Source: Noviherbaspirillum saxi (GTDB lineage Bacteria; Pseudomonadota; Gammaproteobacteria; Burkholderiales; Burkholderiaceae_D). From it: DNA of 64,000 nt. The stretch lies in assembly GCF_003591035.1 (NCBI RefSeq), contig NZ_QYUO01000003.1, positions 310,001 through 374,000 of the forward strand, given 5' to 3'. Position numbers and translations under genes: made by a program. Of the stretch, positions 52,120 to 63,792 are shown piece after piece; position 1 is the stretch's first letter; each line of letters opens with the position of its first letter. The notes below the pieces were generated by a model. It had not been told where the DNA came from and searched no databases. It worked only from the letters and a program-made list of their open reading frames with translations.

Positions 52120-52881
52120 TCAACAGAGAGGAAACGGAAATGGATTTAATGAGCACTGGGCAGGACCGTTGAACGGACGGGATTGGCCTGCGCACTGCGC
52201 CGTACAAAATGCGTTTCTGTCAGCTTCACTCATGGCTAGACAGTTGTCAAAGCAGGCATAGATGCCGAAGTCTTGCGGGTTGGGAAAAGTCGTGCATTGG
52301 CAGAATATATGATTCAGCGTAGTGCAAGCCCCGTCAGAACATATCCCGTAACAACACGTTCCATTGCAAAGCGTCGCGCCGGACGGGCATCCGCAAGCTC
52401 CGCTGATACAGGGTTGTCCCGAGGGGCAGCATGTTTGGCCACAACCCGTTTCGCCACTATTGCAACAAATGTTATTACTGCATACCTTGCCACTGGCACA
52501 GCATGTCCCGCTGCAGCAGGCAATGCCTGCGTTACAGTAGGAAGCGCCGCAGCAGGCAGCACCGCTCGGGGCACAAACAAATGCGCCGAACTGGCCGCAG
52601 ATTCGATTGGTGTCGCCATTGCACTGCAGGCAGACATTCATGCATTGTTGCCGACTCCTTGGGTTGGTGGAGTTCCTGGAGCAGAAATTGCTGCAGGCTT
52701 GGTTAGCACTTCCGCCGCCGCTTCCGCCTCCACCTGGCGTTCCGGGCGGCTTGGCACCGTATCCTACGAGCGGTGTGCCGAGCAGCATGCCGCCCACTAT
52801 CCCACTCAGCCATCGCAGCGCCTCACGCCGCGTCTGTTCCGTTGCCATGGCTTTGGCAACGACATCAAATTTGTGGTCCAT
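52120..52881 (-). CDS. Cysteine-rich Tat-exported protein of unknown function (36 cysteines)
   Basis: This 253-residue protein has a basic N-terminus with TRREALRWLSG followed by a hydrophobic stretch (GIVGGMLLGTPLVGYG), consistent with a twin-arginine signal. A Gly-rich spacer leads to a mature part of about 190 residues with 36 cysteines, many as CC pairs in short repeats (ACCGASYC, ACCSGTCC, ICCNSG, TCCPSGQPC, GTCCYG). The first five lie in a CxxxC/CxxxCxxC arrangement. I do not recognise a named family; the repeats are disulfide- or metal-like. ATG 52881 has AGGAGA upstream. The gene directly upstream encodes a double redoxin, suggesting that its disulfides need dedicated handling. Confidence 0.8.
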   Translation of the reverse strand: MDHKFDVVAKAMATEQTRREALRWLSGIVGGMLLGTPLVGYGAKPPGTPGGGGSGGGSANQACSNFCSRNSTNPRSRQQCMNVCLQCNGDTNRICGQFGAFVCAPSGAACCGASYCNAGIACCSGTCCASGKVCSNNICCNSGETGCGQTCCPSGQPCISGACGCPSGATLCNGTCCYGICSDGACTTLNHIFCQCTTFPNPQDFGIYACFDNCLAMSEADRNAFCTAQCAGQSRPFNGPAQCSLNPFPFPLC

Positions 52882-52934
52882 GATGCATCTCCTGTGAAAT
52901 GGACCACTCCCTGCCAATTGTTCTTTGGATCGAT

Positions 52935-54038
52935 CTATGCTGTGCGGGCTACCTCGCGAATCACTGGCTCGCTAGCCTTCTTCAGTAAGGCCAGGATCGG
53001 CTCCACGCCCGTAGCCACGTCGCTGGCAATCACGCCATGTTCATCGATCAGGTAGCCAAGCGGCGTGGCAAACATCGCGTACAGCCTGGAAATCTCCCAC
53101 TGCTTTTGCAGCACGATAGGAAACTGCAAGCCATGCTCCTTGGCCTTGGCCAGATTCGCTTCCTTGTCGCCGCGACTGACCATCAGAATCTGCACCGCCG
53201 ATTTCGGCGACCACACCTCTTTCAACCGCGCCGACAACTGCTGGCACGGCCCGCATCCGGGATCGGAAAAGATCAGCAGCACCTTGCGGCCTCGGAACTC
53301 ATCCAGCGCCAGTTCGCCGCCATCGAGCTGGGGTAGCCGGAACCTTGGTGCCGGTGTGCCAGCCGACAAGCCATCGCGCTTGATCTTGCTATGGGTAAGC
53401 TCGTGTCCGACCTTGGGCGCAGCCTTGCCGGCATGCGTTTGCCCAGCGTGTGACTGCGCCGCCAACTCCAGCAACGCCGCAGCGCCCGTCGCCATGTCGC
53501 TGGCGATGTTGCTCTGTTCATCGATGAGGTAACCGATGGGCGTGCCGGAGACGCGGTATTGCGACGCGACTTCCATCTGCTGTTGCAGCAGCACCGGGCA
53601 GCGGATGCTATGTTCCTCGACCATCCTGCGGTTGTCTTCTGCACTGCCGGTACTCACCAGCAAAGGCATGGGCTTGCTGTTGTCGTCCAATGGCATGGCG
53701 GCAATATCCAGAGCCATCTGTCGGCAAAAGCCGCAACCGGGATTGAAGAAGATCAATAGCAAGTGGCGGCCACGCCATGTCGACAGGCTGTGCTGCTGAC
53801 CGGAGAGGTCTGGCAATGTCAAGGCAGGGGCCGGTGTACCGATCGGCAGACCAGCAGGCATGGAGGGCGCGGCTTGTGGAGCAGCGATTGCTGGCGCGGG
53901 CCGGTTTTTCAGTTCGGCCAGTTGCTGCTCCAGCGATTCCAGGTGCAGCAGGATGCGGCCATTTTGCTTGACCAACAGGTACCCGATCCAGCAGCCAATG
54001 CCGACGATGGCCCACGCCAGAACAACGAGCACCTCCAT
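52935..54038 (-). CDS. Membrane-anchored tandem TlpA/MauD-like redoxin
   Basis: This 367-residue protein has one N-terminal membrane anchor (VVLAWAIVGIGCWIGYLLV), a short coiled-coil-like segment and two thioredoxin-fold redoxin domains in tandem. Their active sites are Cys102-Gly-Phe-Cys105 and Cys262-Gly-Pro-Cys265, each with a cis-Pro loop (SGTPIGYLID, FATPLGYLID). The N-terminal part recalls MauD, which helps fold the disulfide-rich small subunit of methylamine dehydrogenase. The duplication within one chain is unusual. ATG 54038 has AAGG upstream. It lies 53 bases before the 36-cysteine Tat protein, its likely client, so periplasmic disulfide exchange is inferred. Confidence 0.87.
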   Translation of the reverse strand: MEVLVVLAWAIVGIGCWIGYLLVKQNGRILLHLESLEQQLAELKNRPAPAIAAPQAAPSMPAGLPIGTPAPALTLPDLSGQQHSLSTWRGRHLLLIFFNPGCGFCRQMALDIAAMPLDDNSKPMPLLVSTGSAEDNRRMVEEHSIRCPVLLQQQMEVASQYRVSGTPIGYLIDEQSNIASDMATGAAALLELAAQSHAGQTHAGKAAPKVGHELTHSKIKRDGLSAGTPAPRFRLPQLDGGELALDEFRGRKVLLIFSDPGCGPCQQLSARLKEVWSPKSAVQILMVSRGDKEANLAKAKEHGLQFPIVLQKQWEISRLYAMFATPLGYLIDEHGVIASDVATGVEPILALLKKASEPVIREVARTA

Positions 54039-54275
54039 GGTGCACCTTCTTTCCCACTGGCTTCTTCGTGCCGGGGAGCCCGCAGTTGCTTTCCATCGGC
54101 TTCTGGCGGCTGGCCGAAGAAGCTGCCCATAACAGTCTATGAGCGTGATCACGCGAAACAAGAGAAGCGCAATGTATTTGTCTGCTAAATGAAAGCTTGG
54201 TTGAGCTTCCTCAAAGTTGGAAATACCGAAGTTTGCTGTAAAAGGACCCTTTTTCTGTGTTGAGTCATAGCGCAG

Positions 54276-56327
54276 TCACGCCTCATCCGGCACCTCTTTA
54301 TGCTGGCTGGCCATGCGCTGCTGCATGCCAGGCGGTACAGGGTCGTAGTGACTGAAGCTGACGGTATAACTGCCGCGTCCGGCGGTACTGGAATGCAGCT
54401 GCGACTGGTAACCGTTGAGTTCGGACAGCGGAATCTGGCCGCTGACGATCGTCGCGTCGCCATGGCCCTTGCGCATGCCACTGATCTGTCCGCGCCGCGC
54501 CGACAAATCGGATGTCACGTCGCCCATCTTTTCTTCCGGCACCGATACTTCGATGTTCACGATCGGTTCCAGTAGCAATGGACGCGCCTTCAGCACCGCA
54601 TCCCGAAAAGCCTTGCGCCCGGCCACCATGAAAGCGATGTCTTTCGAATCGACGGGGTGACTCTTTCCATCGTGCACCGTGACCCGTACATCCTGCATCG
54701 GAAAGCCCGCAACCGGTCCGCTTTCCATCGCCTGCAGCACGCCTTTTTCAACGGCAGGAAGAAATTGGCGGGGGATCACGCCCCCCTTGACCGCATCGAC
54801 AAACTCGAAACCCGCGCTACGCGGCAGGGATTCAACTTTCAGAAACACTTCTCCGAATTGCCCGGCGCCGCCGCTTTGTTTTTTGTGGCGGTAATGTCCC
54901 TCGCCGCCCGCGGCAATCGTCTCGCGATAGGCGATCTTGGGCGGATGGGTGTCGACTTCGGTCTTGTAAATTTCGGTCAGACGATCAAGCACGCTGCGCA
55001 AATGGAGTTCGCCCAAACCGGACATGACAGTTTCGCCGGTGCTCATCAACCTGTCCACACGCAGGCACGGATCTTCGGCGCACAGCTTTTGCAGAATGTC
55101 CCACAGGCGCTGCTCGTCGCCGCGCTTGCACGCCTCGATGGACAAGCCATAGATGGGCTGAGGAAGAGGAGGCGGTTCAAGATGGATGTGTGCATCCTCT
55201 GCGGCATCATGCAATATGGAATCGTAGGAGATATCCTCGATTCTGGTTACCGCGCAGATATCACCCGGCACGCCTTCCGCGATTTCAATCTGTTCCTTGC
55301 CTTGCAAGCGATAAAGATGGGCAACACGAAAGGGTTTGCGGATATCGCCGATATAGAGCGTGCCGTCGCGCCGGACCGTTCCTTGATGGATGCGGAATAC
55401 ACTCAGTTTGCCGACATACGGGTCCATTACGGTCTTGAACACATGCGCCAGGACATGGCGCGCCGGATCTTGCACTGCCTTGATGGTCGTATGCTTGTGC
55501 GCCGCATCGGGTTCTTCCTGGTAGAAGAGCGGCGGATTGCCTTCCGTCGGGTTTGGCATCAGCCTGATGAAGATATCGAGCAATTGCGCAATGCCTGCGC
55601 CGTTGCGTGCGGAGACAAAGCAGATCGGGATCAGGTGCCCTTCCCGCAAGGCTTGTTCAAAAGGGGCATGCAGTACCTCCGGCGCAATGTCGCCCTGTTC
55701 GAGATAAGTCTCCATGAATGCGGGATCGACCTCCACTACCTGGTCGATCAGGGCCCTATGCACCAATGCCACACTGGAAAAGTCGGCGTCGCCATCCGGA
55801 TTAAAGAAGCAGTCGATCACCTCGCTGCCACCAGCGGCCGGCAAATTGATCGGGAGACATTCCTTGCCGAACACTTCCTGAATACCTTTGACCAGCCCCG
55901 GCAAGTCGATATCAGGCGCATCGATCTTGTTGACGATGATCAACCTGCACATTGCGCGTTCCCGAGCCAGCTCCATCATGCGCAGGGTAATCATTTCGAT
56001 GCCGTTTTGGGCGTCGATGACCACTGCCGCAGTATCGGCGGCAGGCAGCGCGCTGATCGCCTGTCCGATGAAATCCGGATAGCCCGGCGTATCCGCCAGA
56101 TAAATGCGCGTATCGCGATGATCGATATGGAGCAGGGAAGAGTACAGTGAATGCTGGTATGTGCGCTCGAGCGGGTCGTAATCGGACACGGTGCTTCCAC
56201 GTTCCACGCTTCCCTGAGAGGCAATCATTCCTGATGCATGCAGCAATGCTTCCGACAGTGCCGTCTTGCCACTGCCACTATGCCCGACCAGGGCAATATT
56301 ACGTATTTCTTCTGTGCGGTAAGGCAT
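54276..56327 (-). CDS. EF-G-family translational GTPase (FusA paralogue)
   Basis: This 683-residue GTPase of the EF-G family has the G1 loop GHSGSGKT, the DTPG and NKID motifs, then domains II-V (GTLYIGD, HLRSVLDRLTE, RQFLPAVEKGVLQAM, VDSKDIAFMVAGRKAF, LLEPIVNIEVSVPEEKMGDV). The switch I region (QGSVERGSTVSDYDPLERTYQHS) differs from canonical FusA but follows the EF-G2-type pattern. It is not near the str operon (rpsL, rpsG, tufA), so it is a second EF-G-type factor whose role (ribosome rescue, tetracycline or fusidane tolerance, growth-state) is not established. ATG 56327 has GGAGG upstream. Confidence 0.88.
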   Translation of the reverse strand: MPYRTEEIRNIALVGHSGSGKTALSEALLHASGMIASQGSVERGSTVSDYDPLERTYQHSLYSSLLHIDHRDTRIYLADTPGYPDFIGQAISALPAADTAAVVIDAQNGIEMITLRMMELARERAMCRLIIVNKIDAPDIDLPGLVKGIQEVFGKECLPINLPAAGGSEVIDCFFNPDGDADFSSVALVHRALIDQVVEVDPAFMETYLEQGDIAPEVLHAPFEQALREGHLIPICFVSARNGAGIAQLLDIFIRLMPNPTEGNPPLFYQEEPDAAHKHTTIKAVQDPARHVLAHVFKTVMDPYVGKLSVFRIHQGTVRRDGTLYIGDIRKPFRVAHLYRLQGKEQIEIAEGVPGDICAVTRIEDISYDSILHDAAEDAHIHLEPPPLPQPIYGLSIEACKRGDEQRLWDILQKLCAEDPCLRVDRLMSTGETVMSGLGELHLRSVLDRLTEIYKTEVDTHPPKIAYRETIAAGGEGHYRHKKQSGGAGQFGEVFLKVESLPRSAGFEFVDAVKGGVIPRQFLPAVEKGVLQAMESGPVAGFPMQDVRVTVHDGKSHPVDSKDIAFMVAGRKAFRDAVLKARPLLLEPIVNIEVSVPEEKMGDVTSDLSARRGQISGMRKGHGDATIVSGQIPLSELNGYQSQLHSSTAGRGSYTVSFSHYDPVPPGMQQRMASQHKEVPDEA

Positions 56328-56687
56328 AAGCAGAATCCTCCTGTGAATGACTTTCGTGCCGCTGAACCGGACTTCATCTATTATGGTTCGGGAATCGGGA
56401 ACGGCAAAGGAGAAAACCGACGCCAATGCTGTAGCGAAAAACCTTAAAAAGCGAAATTGCCCTATGCGGCTCAGCCAAAATTAAACGAGGAAAATGTGCC
56501 AGAGCAAAATTCTGTCGTAGGCCGCCAAGAGTTAGCAACTGGCGATCGCTGGTTAGGGCAATTGACCTACAGCAAGGATATCGAGGCAGAAGAATGAAGG
56601 GCTAACCATTTGGTGGACTCTTCTCTTTTTCGGAAGGACAGCGTTGATAGTAAGTAGCCGCGGTGGCCGCTTACTGGTGCTTACAGG
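56328..56687. other. Region between EF-G paralogue and AraC gene
   Basis: Both flanking genes are on the minus strand; the left part should carry the EF-G promoter. Apart from the small possible gene at 56496-56597 nothing is recognised. The sequence at about 56440-56530 is more AT-rich than its surroundings. Confidence 0.35.
56496..56597 (+). CDS. Possible 33-residue small protein (GTG start)
   Basis: A GTG at 56496 preceded by GAGG at a good distance opens a 33-residue frame (PEQNSVVGRQELATGDRWLG then QLTYSKDIEAEE, stop TGA). The residue composition resembles real protein rather than random translation. It could also be the N-terminal remnant of a lost gene. No family is recognised. Confidence 0.28.
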   Translation: MPEQNSVVGRQELATGDRWLGQLTYSKDIEAEE

Positions 56688-57704
56688 TCAACGCGCTGCA
56701 TGGCAGCTACGGTACACAGAGGGGGAAGTTCCCTCCCAGCGCTTGAATGCTCGCCGGAAGTTGGCCAGATCGGAATAACCTAATAAGTAGGCAATTTCTT
56801 GTATAGTCAGATGGTCCGATTTCAAATGCCCGACTGCTATCGTATGCCGTACCTCTTCAAGAATGTCTTTGAAGGACGTGCCCTCCTCTAACAGACGGCG
56901 ATGCAAGGTGCGCGGCGTCAAATGGAACAAACGGGCGACAACGCTGAGCGAAGGGAAACCGTTCTTTTTTTCCAGCATGACTCTCTGCACCTTCGCACCC
57001 AACGTATCGTTCTTCGCCAACTTGTCGAGCTCTCGCTGACAGATAGATGCTGCCTCTTTGAACGTCGTCGAATCAGCCATTTTCAGCGGCAAGTCAACCA
57101 TCTCCAATGGCACCGAGAAACCGGTCCAGGGCTGGCTGAAGCGCACATCGGATTTGAAAACATCTGCCGCCAATGCAGCATAACTGGTTCTCTCGAACGG
57201 GAATGCCACCTCGCTAACCCGGCACGCCCCCATGGTCACGTAATCCAGCACGTTTTTAATAGTGAGCACCACGGCTTCAAGTACAGGGCGACGGATATCC
57301 CCCAAGGGATGTGGCTCCTCGAATTTAACCCGAAATTGCGTACCGTCGACCTCGTGGCAAATAGAGACTAGCGGCGTACGCACAGCGACATAACGCTCAA
57401 ACAATTCGACTGTTTGACGTACCGTACCGCTGCTGATGGCCGCATAGCCGAGAATGCCGTGCGCATTCACCAGAAGCCGTTCTCCCACCAGCAGCCCGAA
57501 TGCCGGTTCCTGCGTCATTGCCATGGCATCTAATATCAGCTTCCGGAAAGTCGCGTAAGGAAGGCGCAACTGCGCATCATCCAGTTGCGTTTCACGGACT
57601 TGATTCCCTTCCAGCCAGCGCTGCATATCACCGCCCATATCTCGGATCTGATCTGCAACTTGGCGCAAGTAGTACACCGGCACTGTGAAATCCGAGTTGT
57701 GCAT
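56688..57704 (-). CDS. AraC-family regulator with Arabinose-binding-like (OruR-type) N-domain
   Basis: This regulator of about 338 residues has an N-terminal ligand domain of the AraC-binding type seen in OruR (VYYLRQVADQIRDMGGDMQRWL, FGLLVGERLLVNAHGILGYAAISSGTVRQTVELFERYVAVRTPLV). The C-terminal helix-turn-helix pair reads PSLSVVARLFHLTPRTLHRRLLEEG ... LTIQEIAYLLGYSDLANFRRAFKRWEGTSPSVYR. It is divergent from the hydroxylase fusion and very probably activates that operon; XylS of the TOL pathway is a functional parallel. The start at ATG 57704 is my best choice, without a clear ribosome site; the frame is open to 57833. Confidence 0.88.
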   Translation of the reverse strand: MHNSDFTVPVYYLRQVADQIRDMGGDMQRWLEGNQVRETQLDDAQLRLPYATFRKLILDAMAMTQEPAFGLLVGERLLVNAHGILGYAAISSGTVRQTVELFERYVAVRTPLVSICHEVDGTQFRVKFEEPHPLGDIRRPVLEAVVLTIKNVLDYVTMGACRVSEVAFPFERTSYAALAADVFKSDVRFSQPWTGFSVPLEMVDLPLKMADSTTFKEAASICQRELDKLAKNDTLGAKVQRVMLEKKNGFPSLSVVARLFHLTPRTLHRRLLEEGTSFKDILEEVRHTIAVGHLKSDHLTIQEIAYLLGYSDLANFRRAFKRWEGTSPSVYRSCHAAR

Positions 57705-57873: not shown

Positions 57874-60123
57874 ATGTTGGCACTTCTCTCTCGTAGAAAG
57901 GCGACAACCGCACATATCAACCTGCGGCCAGTCACAGTCAACCCAAAGGAGACCTTGTTGCAGGCGGCGCTACGCGAAGGAATTCCCTTTCCTAATAGTT
58001 GCCGTGTAGGAGGATGTGCCACCTGCAAATGCAAGCTTGTCCGCGGCAAGGTCAAGGAACTGACCGAGTCGGGCTATATCCTTTCCGATGAAGAAGTCAG
58101 GGAGGGCTATATCCTGGCATGCCAAAGCGTGCCGCAAACTGATGTCAGCATCGATGTTGAGCTTCTTCGTCCCGCGTCGCATCGCAAGACGAGCGGACGT
58201 GTCATTGGTCAGGAAAAGCTGACGCACGATATTACCCGCCTGCGTGTGCAACTGGACGCTCCCCTTCAATACAGGGCAGGTCAATTTGCCGATATTGGTA
58301 TTGCCTCTTTGCCTGGCATCAGCCGAAGTTACTCTTTTGCCGCCCCCACTCGCTCCGACGGTCAGGTCAGCTTTTTTGTCCGCAAGGTCGCGGGAGGTGA
58401 GTTTTCTTCCCTGATTAACGACAGTAAGGTTATCGGCCAGTCCGTGCTTCTGGATGGTCCTTCGGGAGATTTTTGGTTACGTCCTGGGGAAGCCCCGTTA
58501 TTGCTGGTGGCGGGGGGAAGCGGCCTCGCGCCAGTGCTGGCATTGCTTCAGGAGGCGGCAGCGAACGGCGTATCGCGATCCGTCATTTTGCTTTTTGGCG
58601 CACGCGAGGAAAAGGACCTTTACGCGCTCGAGGAAATCAATCGCATCGCAAGTCAATGGCGGGGGACGTTTCGGTTTGTTCCAGTGCTTTCCGATACTCC
58701 TGCAGAGTCGACGTGGGCAGGCGAACGCGGCCTGGTTGTCGACAAGATTCCAGAGTTGCTGGAAGCCGGTTCTCATGCATACCTCTGCGGTCCGCCGCCC
58801 ATGATCGATCGCGGCATTGCGCTGCTTGAAGAACACGGCATCGCACGCGAGCACATTCATGCGGATCGTTTTCTCACTCGGCACGATGCCCCCGCCGCTG
58901 TAGCAAAGGTAGCAAAGGCTTCTTCCGCGCGAGTCCTTCAACACGCTTCTACGAGTGCAGGCGTACTGCATTACCTGAAGTACTTCCTGTTCCATGCCAT
59001 TGGACTGATCGCACTGGCAGCGACACTCGCAGGCGGGTCTTTTATTACCGCAGGGCTGGCGGCCATCCTTGCGATTTATCTGCTGGGAGACGCGGTGCTC
59101 GGTGATGACACCTCCACGCCGCAGTTCCGGCACCCTGGCATCTTGACCGCGCAACTATGGCTGGCCTTGCCGCTGCTGGCATTGATCGTTTTTGCGGCGG
59201 TATGGCACGTCAGTCCAGGCGATCCATTCGGCTTTGGGAACTGGATTGCGCATCTCACCGGCTATGACGTCATTGCCGCTCGCGACGCAACGTCTTTTGG
59301 CGCGCACGTGTCCTTGACCTTCCTTACAGGGCTGATGATCGGAATGGTCGGCACCATACCCGCACACGAATTGACACACCGCACCTGGGATCCCGTGTCG
59401 ATGTTGATTGGGCGCTGCTTGTTGGCATTCAGCTTTGACACCGTCTTCTCCATCGAGCATGTGTATGGCCACCACCGTTACGTCTCTACCGAGGAAGATC
59501 CTGCGACTGCCCCGCGCGGACGAAACGTGTACCACCATGTCGTCGCCTCTACCGTCAAGGGCAATATCAGTGCGTGGAACATTGAACAAAAGCGTCTGGC
59601 GCGTAAAGGCTTGCGATTGTTCTCCTGGCGTAATGCGGTCATCAGAGGGCACCTGATGAGCCTGCTGCTGGTCGTCGCTGCCTGGGCAGCCGGCGGATGG
59701 CAGGCAGCGGTGTACTTTACGCTGTTCGGCCTGTGGGGAAAAAGCCTTCTGGAGATCGTGAACTATATGGAACACTATGGAATGGTGCGTAACCCGCAAG
59801 TGCCCGTGCAGCCGCGCCACTCCTGGAACACGAACAAACGCATCAGCTCCTGGACCATGTTCAACCTGACGCGGCATTCCCATCACCACGCGCAAGGCGA
59901 GGTTCCCTATCAGGATCTCAAGCCGTTTCCCGACGCGCCAATAATGATCGGCGGTTACCTGACAACCATCGTCGTCGCGATGATTCCACCGCTCTGGCAC
60001 AAGTTGATGACGCCGAAAGTACTCGCCTGGGACCGCGACTTTGCCAACGCCGAAGAGCGCCAGTTGGTCGCCCGTGCCAATGCCCGAAGCGACATCCCGG
60101 CCTTTCAGCGGGTAATCAAATGA
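57874..60123 (+). CDS. Ferredoxin-reductase-AlkB/XylM fusion: single-chain diiron membrane hydroxylase
   Basis: This 749-residue protein joins three modules. Residues about 12-95 are a plant-type [2Fe-2S] ferredoxin (Cys43, Cys48, Cys51, Cys83). Residues about 105-340 are an FNR-type reductase with FAD motif RSYS, the NAD segment GGSGLAPVLALL and CGPPPMID. From about 360 an AlkB/XylM hydroxylase with membrane helices follows, with histidine boxes H498-ELTH, E528-HVYGHH and R-H668-SHHHA plus NYMEHYG at 630-636. The first two modules have the layout of XylA, the reductase of xylene monooxygenase; the third corresponds to XylM/AlkB. It would hydroxylate alkyl or methyl groups with NADH and O2. 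AGGAG precedes the ATG. The substrate is not determined. Confidence 0.92.
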   Translation: MLALLSRRKATTAHINLRPVTVNPKETLLQAALREGIPFPNSCRVGGCATCKCKLVRGKVKELTESGYILSDEEVREGYILACQSVPQTDVSIDVELLRPASHRKTSGRVIGQEKLTHDITRLRVQLDAPLQYRAGQFADIGIASLPGISRSYSFAAPTRSDGQVSFFVRKVAGGEFSSLINDSKVIGQSVLLDGPSGDFWLRPGEAPLLLVAGGSGLAPVLALLQEAAANGVSRSVILLFGAREEKDLYALEEINRIASQWRGTFRFVPVLSDTPAESTWAGERGLVVDKIPELLEAGSHAYLCGPPPMIDRGIALLEEHGIAREHIHADRFLTRHDAPAAVAKVAKASSARVLQHASTSAGVLHYLKYFLFHAIGLIALAATLAGGSFITAGLAAILAIYLLGDAVLGDDTSTPQFRHPGILTAQLWLALPLLALIVFAAVWHVSPGDPFGFGNWIAHLTGYDVIAARDATSFGAHVSLTFLTGLMIGMVGTIPAHELTHRTWDPVSMLIGRCLLAFSFDTVFSIEHVYGHHRYVSTEEDPATAPRGRNVYHHVVASTVKGNISAWNIEQKRLARKGLRLFSWRNAVIRGHLMSLLLVVAAWAAGGWQAAVYFTLFGLWGKSLLEIVNYMEHYGMVRNPQVPVQPRHSWNTNKRISSWTMFNLTRHSHHHAQGEVPYQDLKPFPDAPIMIGGYLTTIVVAMIPPLWHKLMTPKVLAWDRDFANAEERQLVARANARSDIPAFQRVIK

Positions 60124-61550
60124 CGAACATGTTTCGTATGCGAGAAGACAGGGCACAGGAGGAGTTGACTGACGCACTGACCAGGCAGCGCGACGCCCAG
60201 CGACAAGAGCCGCTGCCGACGTGGGAGGTAAGAGCCGATCGCCTTCGCCGTCTTCGTGCATTGGTCAAGGAAAGCCGTGCAAGCATTGCCGCAGCCATTC
60301 ATCGTGACTTCTCCCATCGGCCGCAGGCCGAAACCGATCTGCTGGAGATATTCCCGTCGATAGGCGGCATCGACCACGCGCTGCGCCACGGGAAGAAATG
60401 GATGAAGCCGCGCCGGCGTCAAACCGGTTTGTGGTTCAAGCCTGCACGGTCGGTACTGCTCCCCCAGCCATTGGGTGTGATCGGCATCATCGTTCCATGG
60501 AACTATCCGTTGTTCCTGGCCGTGGGGCCGCTAACATGTGCGCTGGCAGCGGGAAATCGGGCGATGGTGAAACTGTCCGAGCTAACGCCTGAATTCGCCG
60601 CGCTTTTTGCGGAGCTTATCCGCGCACATTTTGATCCGGCCGAAGCTACCGTCCTCAATGGCGATGCGGATGTCGCACGCGCCTTCAGCAGCCTGCCGTT
60701 TGATCACCTGCTGTTTACTGGTTCAACCCGCATCGGACGAGACGTAATGCGTGCGGCCAGTGCGAACTTGACGCCAGTTACGCTGGAGCTCGGTGGGAAA
60801 TCCCCGGCTGTCATCGGCACCAACGCTGATTTCGATGCAGCTGTAACGTCCATTTTGCGTGGCAAGCTGTTCAATGCGGGACAGACCTGTATCGCGCCTG
60901 ACTATGTGCTGCTGCCCAAAGGTAAAGAAGCAAGATTCATTGAAACCGCGCGAAGAGTCTTTGACAAGCTGTATCCGCCCAGCCGGCAATTCCAGGACTA
61001 CGCGAGCATCATTACCGAGCGGCACCGCAATCGTCTGTTGTCGCTTATCGATGACGCCGCTCAAGCCGGCGCTACGGTTCATCCGCTGGCGGCAAGCAGC
61101 GAACCTCCGAGCGGGCGCTGCTTGCCTCCGGTGCTGATAACGGGCGTCGCCGACAACATGGCAGTCATGCAGGAAGAAATCTTTGGGCCGATTCTGCCGG
61201 TATTGAGTTATGCCTCGCTCGATGAAGCAGTCCATTACATCAACACACGGCCGCGCCCGCTGGCGCTCTACATGTTCGATCGCGATCGCGGCAGCATTGA
61301 TCGCATGATCACGCAGACCGTAGCCGGCGGCGTAACGGTCAACGATACGTTGCTGCACATTGCACAGGACGACCTTCCGTTTGGTGGAGCCGGCGACAGC
61401 GGCATGGGGGCATACCATGGAAAGGACGGCTTCGACACGTTTTCAAAACTCAAGCCGGTCGTCTACCAATCGCGCCTGAACGGCATGTGGCTGATCCAGC
61501 CCCCATATGGCAAGCGCTTCAAGCAGATGATGCGACTGATGCTCCCATAA
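60120..61550 (+). CDS. Aldehyde dehydrogenase of the coniferyl/fatty-aldehyde type
   Basis: This 476-residue aldehyde dehydrogenase has VIGIIVPWNYPLFLAVGPL, FTGSTRIGRDVMRAAS, Glu223 in LELGGKSP and catalytic Cys257 in GQTCIAPDY, with EEIFGPILPV. The form, with an N-terminal segment DRLRRLRALVKESRASIAAAI and a basic, hydrophobic C-terminus, matches the coniferyl-aldehyde/fatty-aldehyde (class 3) group, which is often membrane-associated. Its ATG overlaps the stop of the hydroxylase gene (ATGA), so the two are coupled. It would oxidise the aldehyde made from the hydroxylated product to a carboxylic acid. Confidence 0.93.
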   Translation: MTNMFRMREDRAQEELTDALTRQRDAQRQEPLPTWEVRADRLRRLRALVKESRASIAAAIHRDFSHRPQAETDLLEIFPSIGGIDHALRHGKKWMKPRRRQTGLWFKPARSVLLPQPLGVIGIIVPWNYPLFLAVGPLTCALAAGNRAMVKLSELTPEFAALFAELIRAHFDPAEATVLNGDADVARAFSSLPFDHLLFTGSTRIGRDVMRAASANLTPVTLELGGKSPAVIGTNADFDAAVTSILRGKLFNAGQTCIAPDYVLLPKGKEARFIETARRVFDKLYPPSRQFQDYASIITERHRNRLLSLIDDAAQAGATVHPLAASSEPPSGRCLPPVLITGVADNMAVMQEEIFGPILPVLSYASLDEAVHYINTRPRPLALYMFDRDRGSIDRMITQTVAGGVTVNDTLLHIAQDDLPFGGAGDSGMGAYHGKDGFDTFSKLKPVVYQSRLNGMWLIQPPYGKRFKQMMRLMLP

Positions 61551-61618
61551 CCCGCCGACGCATGCCAACAAGACCGGCTGATAAAAAGACCGGAAATCCG
61601 AAAAACATAAGGAGACAT

Positions 61619-62137
61619 ATGTCAAAAGCTCTTTCTCGCCGATCCTTCCTGAAGGTCGGTGTTGTCGGCGGATTGGCGCTCGCTACGGCAGGCAGCATTT
61701 ACCGCCTTGTTCGAGACCCCGAGACGCCACGTCGTTTTGTTCTCGATGAGCGCACGCGCAACGTTCTGGCAGCGGTCGCTCCGGTGATCCTCACGGGTGC
61801 GCTTCATCCGGGATCAGACGACGTGCAGGCCGTGATCGAGCGCATTGAGGGGGCGATCCAGCAATTACCCCTGAAGGTGCAAAAGGAAATCCAGGATCTG
61901 TTCGCGTTGCTCACGCTGGCACCCACCCGCCGCTTCCTGGCAGGCCTGCCTGATGACTGGCGTATTGCGAAGCAGGAAGAGATCGCCGCTTTTCTGCAAA
62001 GCTGGCGACTGCACCGCATCGGCATGTTGCAAACCGCATATCACGCGCTGCATGACCTCGTCGTTGGCCCCTGGTATGCCGACGAATCGACATGGGCATC
62101 CATTGGTTACCCCGGCCCGATCAAGGAACTCAGCTGA
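61619..62137 (+). CDS. Small Tat-signal protein, probable partner subunit of the GMC oxidoreductase
   Basis: This 172-residue protein starts with a clear twin-arginine signal (SRRSFLKVGVVGGLALATAG). The mature part is helical, with TRNVLAAVAPVILTGALHPG and LQSWRLHRIGMLQTAYHALHDLVVGPWYAD, without cysteines or obvious cofactor sites. It resembles the small subunits that accompany GMC-type dehydrogenases such as gluconate 2-dehydrogenase subunit 3 in size, signal and position, though sequence identity was not tested. AAGGAGA precedes ATG 61619. The downstream GMC gene starts eight bases after its stop. It may export the flavoprotein as a complex by the Tat route. Confidence 0.8.
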   Translation: MSKALSRRSFLKVGVVGGLALATAGSIYRLVRDPETPRRFVLDERTRNVLAAVAPVILTGALHPGSDDVQAVIERIEGAIQQLPLKVQKEIQDLFALLTLAPTRRFLAGLPDDWRIAKQEEIAAFLQSWRLHRIGMLQTAYHALHDLVVGPWYADESTWASIGYPGPIKELS

Positions 62138-62145
62138 GAAAAACA

Positions 62146-63792
62146 ATGACAACGACGATGACAACGACAATCATGAACACGAACCCCATTCCCGATCCGA
62201 TCCAGGCCGGTCTTGCCTCCGGCTGGAATGTCATCGATGCGTCCGCACTCGACGCCAACCGTCAATTCGAAGTGGATGTCGCGATCATCGGCACCGGTGC
62301 CGGTGGCGGCGTGACCGCGGAAATCCTCAGCATGGCAGGCTTGAAGATTCTTCTGATCGAGGAGGGACCGTTAAAGTCGTCGAAGGACTTCAAGATGCGC
62401 GAAGCGCAAGCCTACCCGGAGCTGTACCAGGAGTCGGCTGCGCGCAAGACCAAGGACAAGGCGATCAACATCATGCAGGGACGCAGCGTCGGCGGGTCGA
62501 CGACGGTCAACTGGACCTCAAGCTTTCGTACACCGGAGGACACCCTGCACTACTGGCAAAAGAACTTTGGCCTTCAGGATTATGCTCCTCAGGCGTTAGC
62601 GCCGTGGTTCGACCAAATGGAGCGGCGCTTGCATGTCACCCCCTGGGCTGCCGCGCCGAACGAAAACAACGACCTGTTGCGACGTGGTGCAGAAAAACTG
62701 GGAATTTCTACTGCCGTCATTCCTCGCAATGTGAACGGGTGCTGGAACCTTGGCTACTGTGGCATGGGTTGTCCGACCAATGCCAAGCAATCGATGCTGG
62801 TGACCACGATCCCCGCGGCACTGTCGCGCGGAGCGGTCCTGCTTACACGCACCCGCGCTGAAAAGCTGAACTTCAAGGGCGACAGAGTCGACAGCCTGTC
62901 GTGCGTGGCGATAAGCGCAGACGGCCTTGCTCCGTCCGGCAAGACGATTACTGTGCGTGCCCGTCATTATGTCGTGTCCGGCGGTGCCATCAATTCGCCC
63001 GGCCTTCTCCTGCGCTCCAATGCGCCGGACCCGCACCGAATTCTTGGCAAGCGCACCGTCCTGCACCCGGTCGTGCTGTCGGCAGCACTCTACGACCACA
63101 AGGTCGACAGTTTCGCCGGTGCGCCGCAGTCGATCTATTCCGACCATTTCCTGAACACTGATGCGATCGACGGGCCGATCGGCTACAAACTGGAGGTGCC
63201 ACCGCTGCATCCGCTACTGATCTCCGCCACGCTCAGTGGCTTCGGTGAACATCACTCACACCTCATGAAGCGGTTCGCGAACCTGCATGCAATCATTGCG
63301 TTGCTGCGCGATGGCTTTCACGAACAATCGGTCGGCGGCACGGTGGAACTGCGTGACGGCGGTTCTCCGGTACTGGATTACCCGATCACCGACTTTGTTT
63401 GGGACGGTATCCGACGCGCGCTACTCACGATGGTGGAAATCCAGTTCGCCGCCGGCGCAAAGATCGTGTATCCGGTACACGAATTGGCGGATGGCTATAC
63501 CAGTTGGTCCAGCGCGAAAAAGGCGATCGAGGCGCTGCCATACAAGCCGCTGTTCACGCGCGTCGTTTCCGCACATGTGATGGGTGGCTGCACCATGTCC
63601 GACGACACGAAGCTTGGTGTGGTGTCGTCCACGGGGCGCTACCATGGCGTGAGCAACCTCTCCGTGCACGATGGCTCGCTATTCCCGACGTCTATCGGCG
63701 CCAACCCGCAATTATCGATCTACGGCATCACCTGTCGTCTGGCCAGCATGCTGGCGCAGCAGTTGACTGGCAAGCCGGCGCCGGTGCTGTGA
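62146..63792 (+). CDS. GMC-family FAD oxidoreductase (alcohol dehydrogenase/oxidase)
   Basis: This 548-residue GMC flavoprotein would oxidise a primary or secondary alcohol. The FAD-binding motif VAIIGTGAGGGVTAEILSMAG is followed by GRSVGGSTTVNW and, near the end, HVMGGCTMSD and the His/Asn active-site region GANPQLSIYGITCRLA. It has no signal peptide of its own, so hitch-hiking with the small Tat protein is likely. It is last in the hydroxylase operon and completes an alcohol step between the hydroxylase and the aldehyde dehydrogenase. Three near-start ATGs exist (62146, 62158, 62173); the ribosome site is weak. The electron acceptor could be a cytochrome or quinone. Confidence 0.9.
   Translation: MTTTMTTTIMNTNPIPDPIQAGLASGWNVIDASALDANRQFEVDVAIIGTGAGGGVTAEILSMAGLKILLIEEGPLKSSKDFKMREAQAYPELYQESAARKTKDKAINIMQGRSVGGSTTVNWTSSFRTPEDTLHYWQKNFGLQDYAPQALAPWFDQMERRLHVTPWAAAPNENNDLLRRGAEKLGISTAVIPRNVNGCWNLGYCGMGCPTNAKQSMLVTTIPAALSRGAVLLTRTRAEKLNFKGDRVDSLSCVAISADGLAPSGKTITVRARHYVVSGGAINSPGLLLRSNAPDPHRILGKRTVLHPVVLSAALYDHKVDSFAGAPQSIYSDHFLNTDAIDGPIGYKLEVPPLHPLLISATLSGFGEHHSHLMKRFANLHAIIALLRDGFHEQSVGGTVELRDGGSPVLDYPITDFVWDGIRRALLTMVEIQFAAGAKIVYPVHELADGYTSWSSAKKAIEALPYKPLFTRVVSAHVMGGCTMSDDTKLGVVSSTGRYHGVSNLSVHDGSLFPTSIGANPQLSIYGITCRLASMLAQQLTGKPAPVL

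Follow-up and report, generated by a model that had tools for sequence, protein, structure and literature searches.

A ferredoxin–reductase–AlkB-type fusion protein in Noviherbaspirillum saxi, a probable self-sufficient alkane 1-monooxygenase with close two-gene relatives

The window analyzed here, a 64,000-nucleotide stretch of the genome of the betaproteobacterium Noviherbaspirillum saxi (contig NZ_QYUO01000003.1, positions 310,001 to 374,000, forward strand), encodes a protein in which a [2Fe-2S] ferredoxin, an FAD/NAD reductase and an AlkB-type diiron hydroxylase follow one another in a single frame. This order of domains is that of the ferr_ferrR_AlkB class, and the protein is very probably a self-sufficient, membrane-bound alkane 1-monooxygenase of this ferredoxin/ferredoxin-reductase/AlkB fusion class. 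The class has already been described and assayed, and the window protein is an ordinary member. A sequence-only reading of the window had named the same kind of enzyme, a ferredoxin-reductase-hydroxylase with an AlkB-type diiron site, and was right in doing so. The fused protein assayed by Williams in 2022 is reportedly one from Limnobacter. According to PMC8918992, a 2014 survey suggested a class in which AlkB carries a ferredoxin and a ferredoxin reductase at its N-terminus in one fused chain, and a member was later expressed and found to be active, without epoxidizing alkenes. The sequence-only reading had also called biochemical knowledge of such fusions scant, which overstates a gap that is now partly filled.

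One reading frame with intact cofactor sites

The frame runs from ATG to TGA over 749 codons with no internal stop, and the sequence AGGAG precedes the ATG by 5 nt (Table 1). The four Pfam domains (Fer2, FAD_binding_6, NAD_binding_1 and FA_desaturase, the last spanning residues 481-683) each exceed the curated cut-offs. The [2Fe-2S] cysteines C43, C48, C51 and C83 are intact and are present in 200 of the 204 aligned family rows, the remaining 4 being gapped, and the reductase motifs RSYS and GGSGLAP/CGPP are intact as well. The open reading frame (ORF), the Pfam matches and the motifs thereby confirm the earlier statement that a complete [2Fe-2S] domain, an FAD/NAD reductase and a full set of histidine boxes share one frame. 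The ferredoxin loop also contains a fifth cysteine, C53 (CxxCxC; window 58030-58032), which is found in 200 of the 204 family rows (4 gapped) and in 0 of 4 XylA-type rows.

The nearest NCBIfam models to the reductase half are BenC/MmoC-type reductases, all under the cut-off, and its nearest solved structure is GcoB (5ogx). The hydroxylase half matches the AlkB fold; its solved-structure matches comprise only two distinct sequences (8f6t and 8sbb), both of which are alkane 1-monooxygenases, with an E value of 0.001. In the predicted model, the linker between the two halves is probably flexible.

Table 1. Features of the fused hydroxylase and its gene run (window positions)
Feature	Position	Strand	Remarks
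Divergent AraC-type regulator	56688..57704	-	Pfam Arabinose_bd and HTH_18; listed ORF extends to 57833, ATG at 57704 judged the likelier start
Fused ferredoxin-reductase-diiron hydroxylase	57874..60123, stop included	+	749 aa; ORF, Pfam, homologues
[2Fe-2S] ferredoxin domain, residues 20-88	57931..58137	+	Pfam Fer2
FAD-binding domain, residues 109-200	58198..58473	+	Pfam FAD_binding_6
NAD(P)-binding domain, residues 211-312	58504..58809	+	Pfam NAD_binding_1
Linker, residues 334-359	58873..58950	+	Predicted local distance difference test (pLDDT) <50; site of the stop and start codons in bicistronic relatives
AlkB-fold diiron hydroxylase, residues 360-749	58951..60120	+	
Histidine box HELTHR (H498, H502)	59365..59382	+	
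Histidine box EHVYGHHRY (H529, H533, H534)	59455..59481	+	
Histidine box NYMEHYG (E633, H634)	59761..59781	+	
Histidine box RHSHHH (H668, H671, H672; extra H670)	59872..59889	+	
Class-3-type aldehyde dehydrogenase	60120..61550	+	ATG overlaps the hydroxylase stop (ATGA)
Small protein, twin-arginine-like signal RRSFLKVG	61619..62137	+	Sequence
GMC-family (FAD) oxidoreductase	62092..63792	+	Pfam; last gene of the run, start uncertain

Could an assembly or sequencing error have joined two genes? Close relatives do occur as pairs of genes, separated by a short gap where the linker lies. However, a homologue search of the whole database returned 657 significant matches, of which the best 120 (query included) are all 719-785 aa long. 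Because all of these 120 have the same four domain types, chance is excluded, and the single-frame architecture is genuine. Among the 119 full-length fusions listed besides the query, the nearest, P0002, is 84% identical along the whole length. Moreover, the linkers of the fused rows vary in sequence and length, and another group resequenced a fused gene by the Sanger method (PMC12903215). The independent homologues already refute a joining error, which is scarcely conceivable. The sequence-only reading had said that it would fall if a stop, a frameshift or a fusion confined to one assembly were found, or if the halves were always separate in homologues. No such defect was found, and close homologues with separate genes exist, but not always.

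Diiron site and the rubredoxin-docking face

The iron site of AlkB consists of nine ligand histidines and a glutamate (PMC10113152). These residues map to H498, H502, H529, H533, H534, H634, H668, H671, H672 and E633 of the window protein, in agreement with class III. All 169 fused rows keep the iron-ligand histidines (168 for the last box, where one row is gapped), as do 154 or 155 of the 155 unfused rows. E633 is kept in all 324 rows; the 324-row counts pool protein matches and loci, so that some genes, the window gene among them, are counted twice.

Two further histidines distinguish these proteins. H670, inside the last box, is histidine in 322 of the 324 rows (two are gapped or unread), while the corresponding residue is D in 4/4 AlkB rows (HSDHH box) and N in 4/4 XylM-type rows. 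H555, which follows the second box, is histidine in 324/324 rows and F in all 8 AlkB and XylM-type rows. Two intermediate sequences, L095 and L096, share H670 without H555. One of the two might act as a tenth iron ligand or a second-sphere residue. If this is true, the extra histidine could explain why the fused member was reported not to epoxidize alkenes (PMC8918992).

In the 8f6t enzyme, six arginines face rubredoxin (PMC10113152). Five of them have no basic counterpart in the window protein, which thus lacks the rubredoxin patch of canonical AlkB: R143, R148, R169 and R287 correspond to T504, M510, Y531 and P644, respectively, and R284 falls in a deleted loop. The only docking arginine that is kept is R215, equivalent to R577, with R or K in 320 of the 324 rows. 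The loop after NYxEHYG, which carries two of the six arginines, is five residues shorter than in 4/4 AlkB rows. The mapping was done by hand, using a numbering offset of 3 that was anchored at H137 and agrees at the remaining histidines; near R148, where the alignment is gapped, it may be off by a residue or two, and the four AlkB rows (L103-L107) also vary at R143, R148, R169 and R287. The missing arginines and the shorter loop fit a ferredoxin donor. The window protein has the fold, the nine histidines and the carboxylate in common with the AlkB/AlkG/AlkT system (8f6t, 8sbb), but differs from it at the surface where rubredoxin would donate electrons.

Fused and bicistronic relatives

Among the genome loci compared (the best 80 of 359), 46 encode one chain and 34 encode two adjacent genes, the reductase followed by the hydroxylase; the counts include L075, whose hydroxylase match is truncated, and in L080 the contig end cuts off the reductase. 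The bicistronic hydroxylases are up to 82% identical to that of the window. In a search with the hydroxylase half, the best 120 of 1715 matches are all 384-429 aa long and 75-82% identical. The bicistronic pairs (for example, the Thalassolituus, Oleispira, Pseudomonas, Aquabacterium and Marinobacter loci) resemble the fused genes in gene order, clade, iron ligands and, often, a divergent AraC gene, while each of their two genes has its own stop and start. In 34/34 bicistronic loci, an ATG in the hydroxylase frame lies at most 78 nt past the reductase stop, often after a purine-rich stretch.

Since many of the frame pairs are in phase, we considered programmed read-through of the stop, or frameshifting, at the bicistronic linker. 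This was rejected, because all 34 have the nearby ATG, the frame relation varies (0, 1 or 2) and the stops are TGA, TAA or TAG. The surplus of in-phase pairs may stem from the ranking of the loci by whole-length matches.

In the hydroxylase tree (95 rows, with the duplicate loci L097-L100 omitted), the fused rows (50) and the bicistronic rows (35) group in a single clade (98/96) that excludes AlkB, the XylM-type rows and the two intermediates. The “AlkB/XylM family” of the sequence-only reading is thereby refined to a clade of ferredoxin-using enzymes distinct from both canonical AlkB and XylM. Within it, 45 fused rows share one branch (89/92, not starred), with the window protein, Limnobacter and Polaromonas among them; the last two genera, together with Leptospira, are named as fusion carriers in PMC10113152. 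The fused label requires 3 changes on this tree, and a constraint that groups all fused rows is not rejected (approximately unbiased test, p-AU 0.196), so a single origin of the fusion is compatible with the data. The reductase-half tree, made by a quick method and containing many weak forks, requires 6 changes; it omits L060, L072, L073, L080, L095, L098-L100 and any row <250 aa, and it is compatible with several fusions without proving them. With the chosen outgroup, several bicistronic groups diverge before the fused ones in this tree, which suggests that the fusion may be the derived state. On this view, one or a few fusion events would have joined a pair of genes into the single chain, or the fusion would have been partly lost again, a direction that we infer from the trees. 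The structure alignment comprised 89 hand-chosen sequences.

No paper that treats the fused and bicistronic forms together was found among those listed in literature searches. A broader proposal would be that the two forms jointly constitute a lineage of their own, third after AlkB and XylM, in which H670 and H555 modify the diiron environment and one or a few fusions turned a two-gene operon into the single chain; that all parts of this proposal hold together is unlikely.

In the tree alignment, L041 (a Maritimibacter contig from a metagenome-assembled genome) and L106 (Hydrocarboniclastica marina plasmid psoil36-7) have identical hydroxylase halves, through either a recent transfer or a misbinned plasmid contig.

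Like the ferr_ferrR_AlkB enzymes (Nie 2014; Williams 2022), the window protein combines a ferredoxin, a reductase and a C-terminal AlkB-type hydroxylase, and it lies on the same tree branch as the Limnobacter and Polaromonas fusions. It branches near the bicistronic forms, however, and its linker is unlike the GFYGAVGLP-type linker of the Limnobacter group. A comparable protein is the fused AlkB of Pseudomonas putida EM2-4, borne on an integrative and conjugative element (PMC12903215). This 754-aa fusion joins oxidoreductase-like residues 1-333, a part that its authors call a desaturase, to an AlkB part, and an alcohol dehydrogenase gene is adjacent, as near the window gene; by its layout, it probably belongs to the same class. 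Strain EM2-4 grows on octane and decane and not on hexane or C12-C16, and the AlkB part is required for growth on octane. The same paper states that the three-domain form requires NADH only and prefers C10-C12.

Gene neighborhood and host genome

The gene run downstream of the hydroxylase ends with the GMC-family oxidoreductase, probably an alcohol dehydrogenase, and the next Pfam-matching gene lies on the opposite strand. The small protein with the twin-arginine-like signal (listed ORF 61487-62137) has no Pfam or NCBIfam match; at a guess, it might be a partner subunit of the GMC enzyme. The best NCBIfam match of the divergent AraC-type regulator is CypR, at 169 bits against a cut-off of 500. 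Scans for promoters and terminators gave nothing clearly above chance.

The AraC regulator is a recurrent partner, as an AraC gene lies within 1 kb in no fewer than 30 of the 48 fused loci and 25 of the 35 bicistronic ones. The resulting 55/83 is a floor: six loci whose AraC frame overlaps the stop-to-stop bounds were omitted, and 10/83 had <1.5 kb upstream. Downstream, GMC-family genes account for 9 of 64 same-strand ORFs (10/66 with the window genes), and aldehyde dehydrogenases for 6/66, one of them the window's own; these 64 ORFs were hand-chosen from 148 heuristic picks, to which two window genes were added.

Adjacent genes for a Fer2 oxidoreductase and a monooxygenase are co-induced on tetradecane in Thalassolituus oleivorans and Oleispira antarctica, and the Oleispira pair adjoins AraC genes (PMC6304351, PMC7318663). 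The authors of the Thalassolituus work describe the adjacent protein as a ferredoxin and point to a ferredoxin reductase that is separate and unlinked. The loci of both genera belong to the bicistronic group in the hydroxylase tree, a kinship by genus rather than by the papers' very proteins.

Farther upstream, on the minus strand, the window encodes an Elongation factor G-like protein (54276-56426; NF009891, 983 bits), a single chain with two tandem AhpC/TSA (ResA-like) thioredoxin-fold stretches (52935-54161) and a predicted cysteine-rich protein with an apparent signal sequence (52120-52917).

Searched at E 0.001, the host genome (6.5 Mb in 3 contigs) yields no further match to this hydroxylase; it has two other desaturase-family matches. 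Among 60 related genomes, its own included, 4 match at E 1e-60 or better and 2 of these carry full-length fusions, namely the window gene and that of a congener, G003, which is 65% identical. Two carriers among the 15 genomes of the genus, together with this low identity, suggest separate acquisition. A reductase homologue of 33% identity (L002, G000:C1:1101046-1102077) gives a match that spans two in-frame TGA codons.

Weighing the assignment

The frame, the domains, the cofactor residues, the fold match, the gene layout and the recurrent regulator are direct observations. Several results nevertheless speak against a self-sufficient alkane hydroxylase. The predicted full-chain model has a predicted template modelling score (pTM) of 0.63 and leaves the domain packing unsettled. 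With only 55% identity to the Limnobacter MED105 fusion, the substrate range could differ. The hydroxylase half is about equally distant from AlkB (28-35% identical) and from the XylM-type rows (27-33%). By sequence, the window's aldehyde dehydrogenase, with homologues in 4/83 loci, is not a conserved neighbor; nor is the GMC enzyme, as homologues of it and of the twin-arginine-like protein occur in 0/83 loci at the threshold used. The host genome has two rubredoxin matches. Finally, the fused gene of G003 adjoins carotenoid genes, and no AraC gene was seen next to it.

The protein could instead be a fused xylene or alkylbenzene hydroxylase, XylM and XylA joined, which acts on aromatic methyl groups and whose aldehyde dehydrogenase would oxidize the aromatic aldehyde. 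The reductase half shares 40-48% identity with XylA-type proteins from four plasmids, and the cofactor chain and the ferredoxin-FAD-NAD order are those of XylM/XylA of pWW0. The short loop after NYxxHYG, P644 and R503 are common to the family of the window protein and XylM, and one tree branch (95/83) places the XylM-type rows and L096 on the fused/bicistronic side, with AlkB and L095 opposite. In addition, the best NCBIfam match of the aldehyde dehydrogenase is benzaldehyde dehydrogenase MdlD, at 303.6 bits against a cut-off of 550. In contrast, the XylM-type rows form their own branch (100/100), with XylM on a very long branch, and carry Q at the E633 site, where the window family and AlkB have E, as well as N at the H670 site and a different last box. 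XylM and XylA of pWW0 are encoded by separate genes in the reverse order, hydroxylase before reductase, an order also found in three other plasmid loci and in G038, and the relatives of the window protein are linked to alkanes (PMC12903215, PMC6304351, PMC7318663). XylM as the closest kin, prompted by the reductase match and the side of the tree, was not adopted in view of the very long branches and the low identity, AlkB being hardly nearer. A xylene or alkylbenzene hydroxylase is very unlikely.

The locus of G003 also raised the question of a hydroxylase for terpenes, carotenoids or other lipids. Beside its fused gene (L109:8020-17820) are genes for an FA_desaturase-family protein, a lycopene cyclase, a phytoene desaturase-like protein, a phytoene synthase and a polyprenyl synthetase. 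However, a comparison with 82 further loci, with flanks of up to 8 kb, gave no counterpart of these carotenoid genes (E 1e-10), the sole match being G003's own L094, and the neighbors of the window hydroxylase are a regulator and alcohol/aldehyde oxidation genes. A carotenoid substrate was rejected for want of support in the loci compared, and such a lipid hydroxylase is very unlikely indeed. Alkanes thus remain the best supported of the substrates that the sequence-only reading had listed, as little was found for xylenes or terpenes.

Proposed mechanism and implications

We propose the following electron path, substrate and neighbor roles for the alkane 1-monooxygenase.

Electron transfer: NADH would pass a hydride to the FAD of the reductase domain, from which electrons would move one at a time to the [2Fe-2S] ferredoxin within that chain. 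The ferredoxin, carried on the flexible linker, would then reduce the histidine-rich diiron site. By analogy with the relatives described in the literature, NADH alone would suffice and alkanes would be used.

Hydroxylation: The diiron site would activate O2 and hydroxylate a terminal C–H bond, most likely that of a medium-chain n-alkane of about C8-C14.

Downstream oxidation and regulation: The alcohol would be oxidized to the fatty acid by two enzymes encoded in this gene run, the GMC enzyme and the aldehyde dehydrogenase, and the divergent AraC protein probably senses the alkane or a product.

What this analysis adds to the known class are the two-gene sister forms, the absence of the rubredoxin patch and two histidines specific to the clade. 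The histidines and the missing patch offer concrete residues to mutate, and the fused and bicistronic forms, with hydroxylases so close in sequence, provide a natural test of fusion, in that one enzyme occurs both with a linker and without it. Redox partners need not be matched in single-chain alkane hydroxylases, a property of use in biocatalysis and in studying how electrons reach the diiron site of AlkB.
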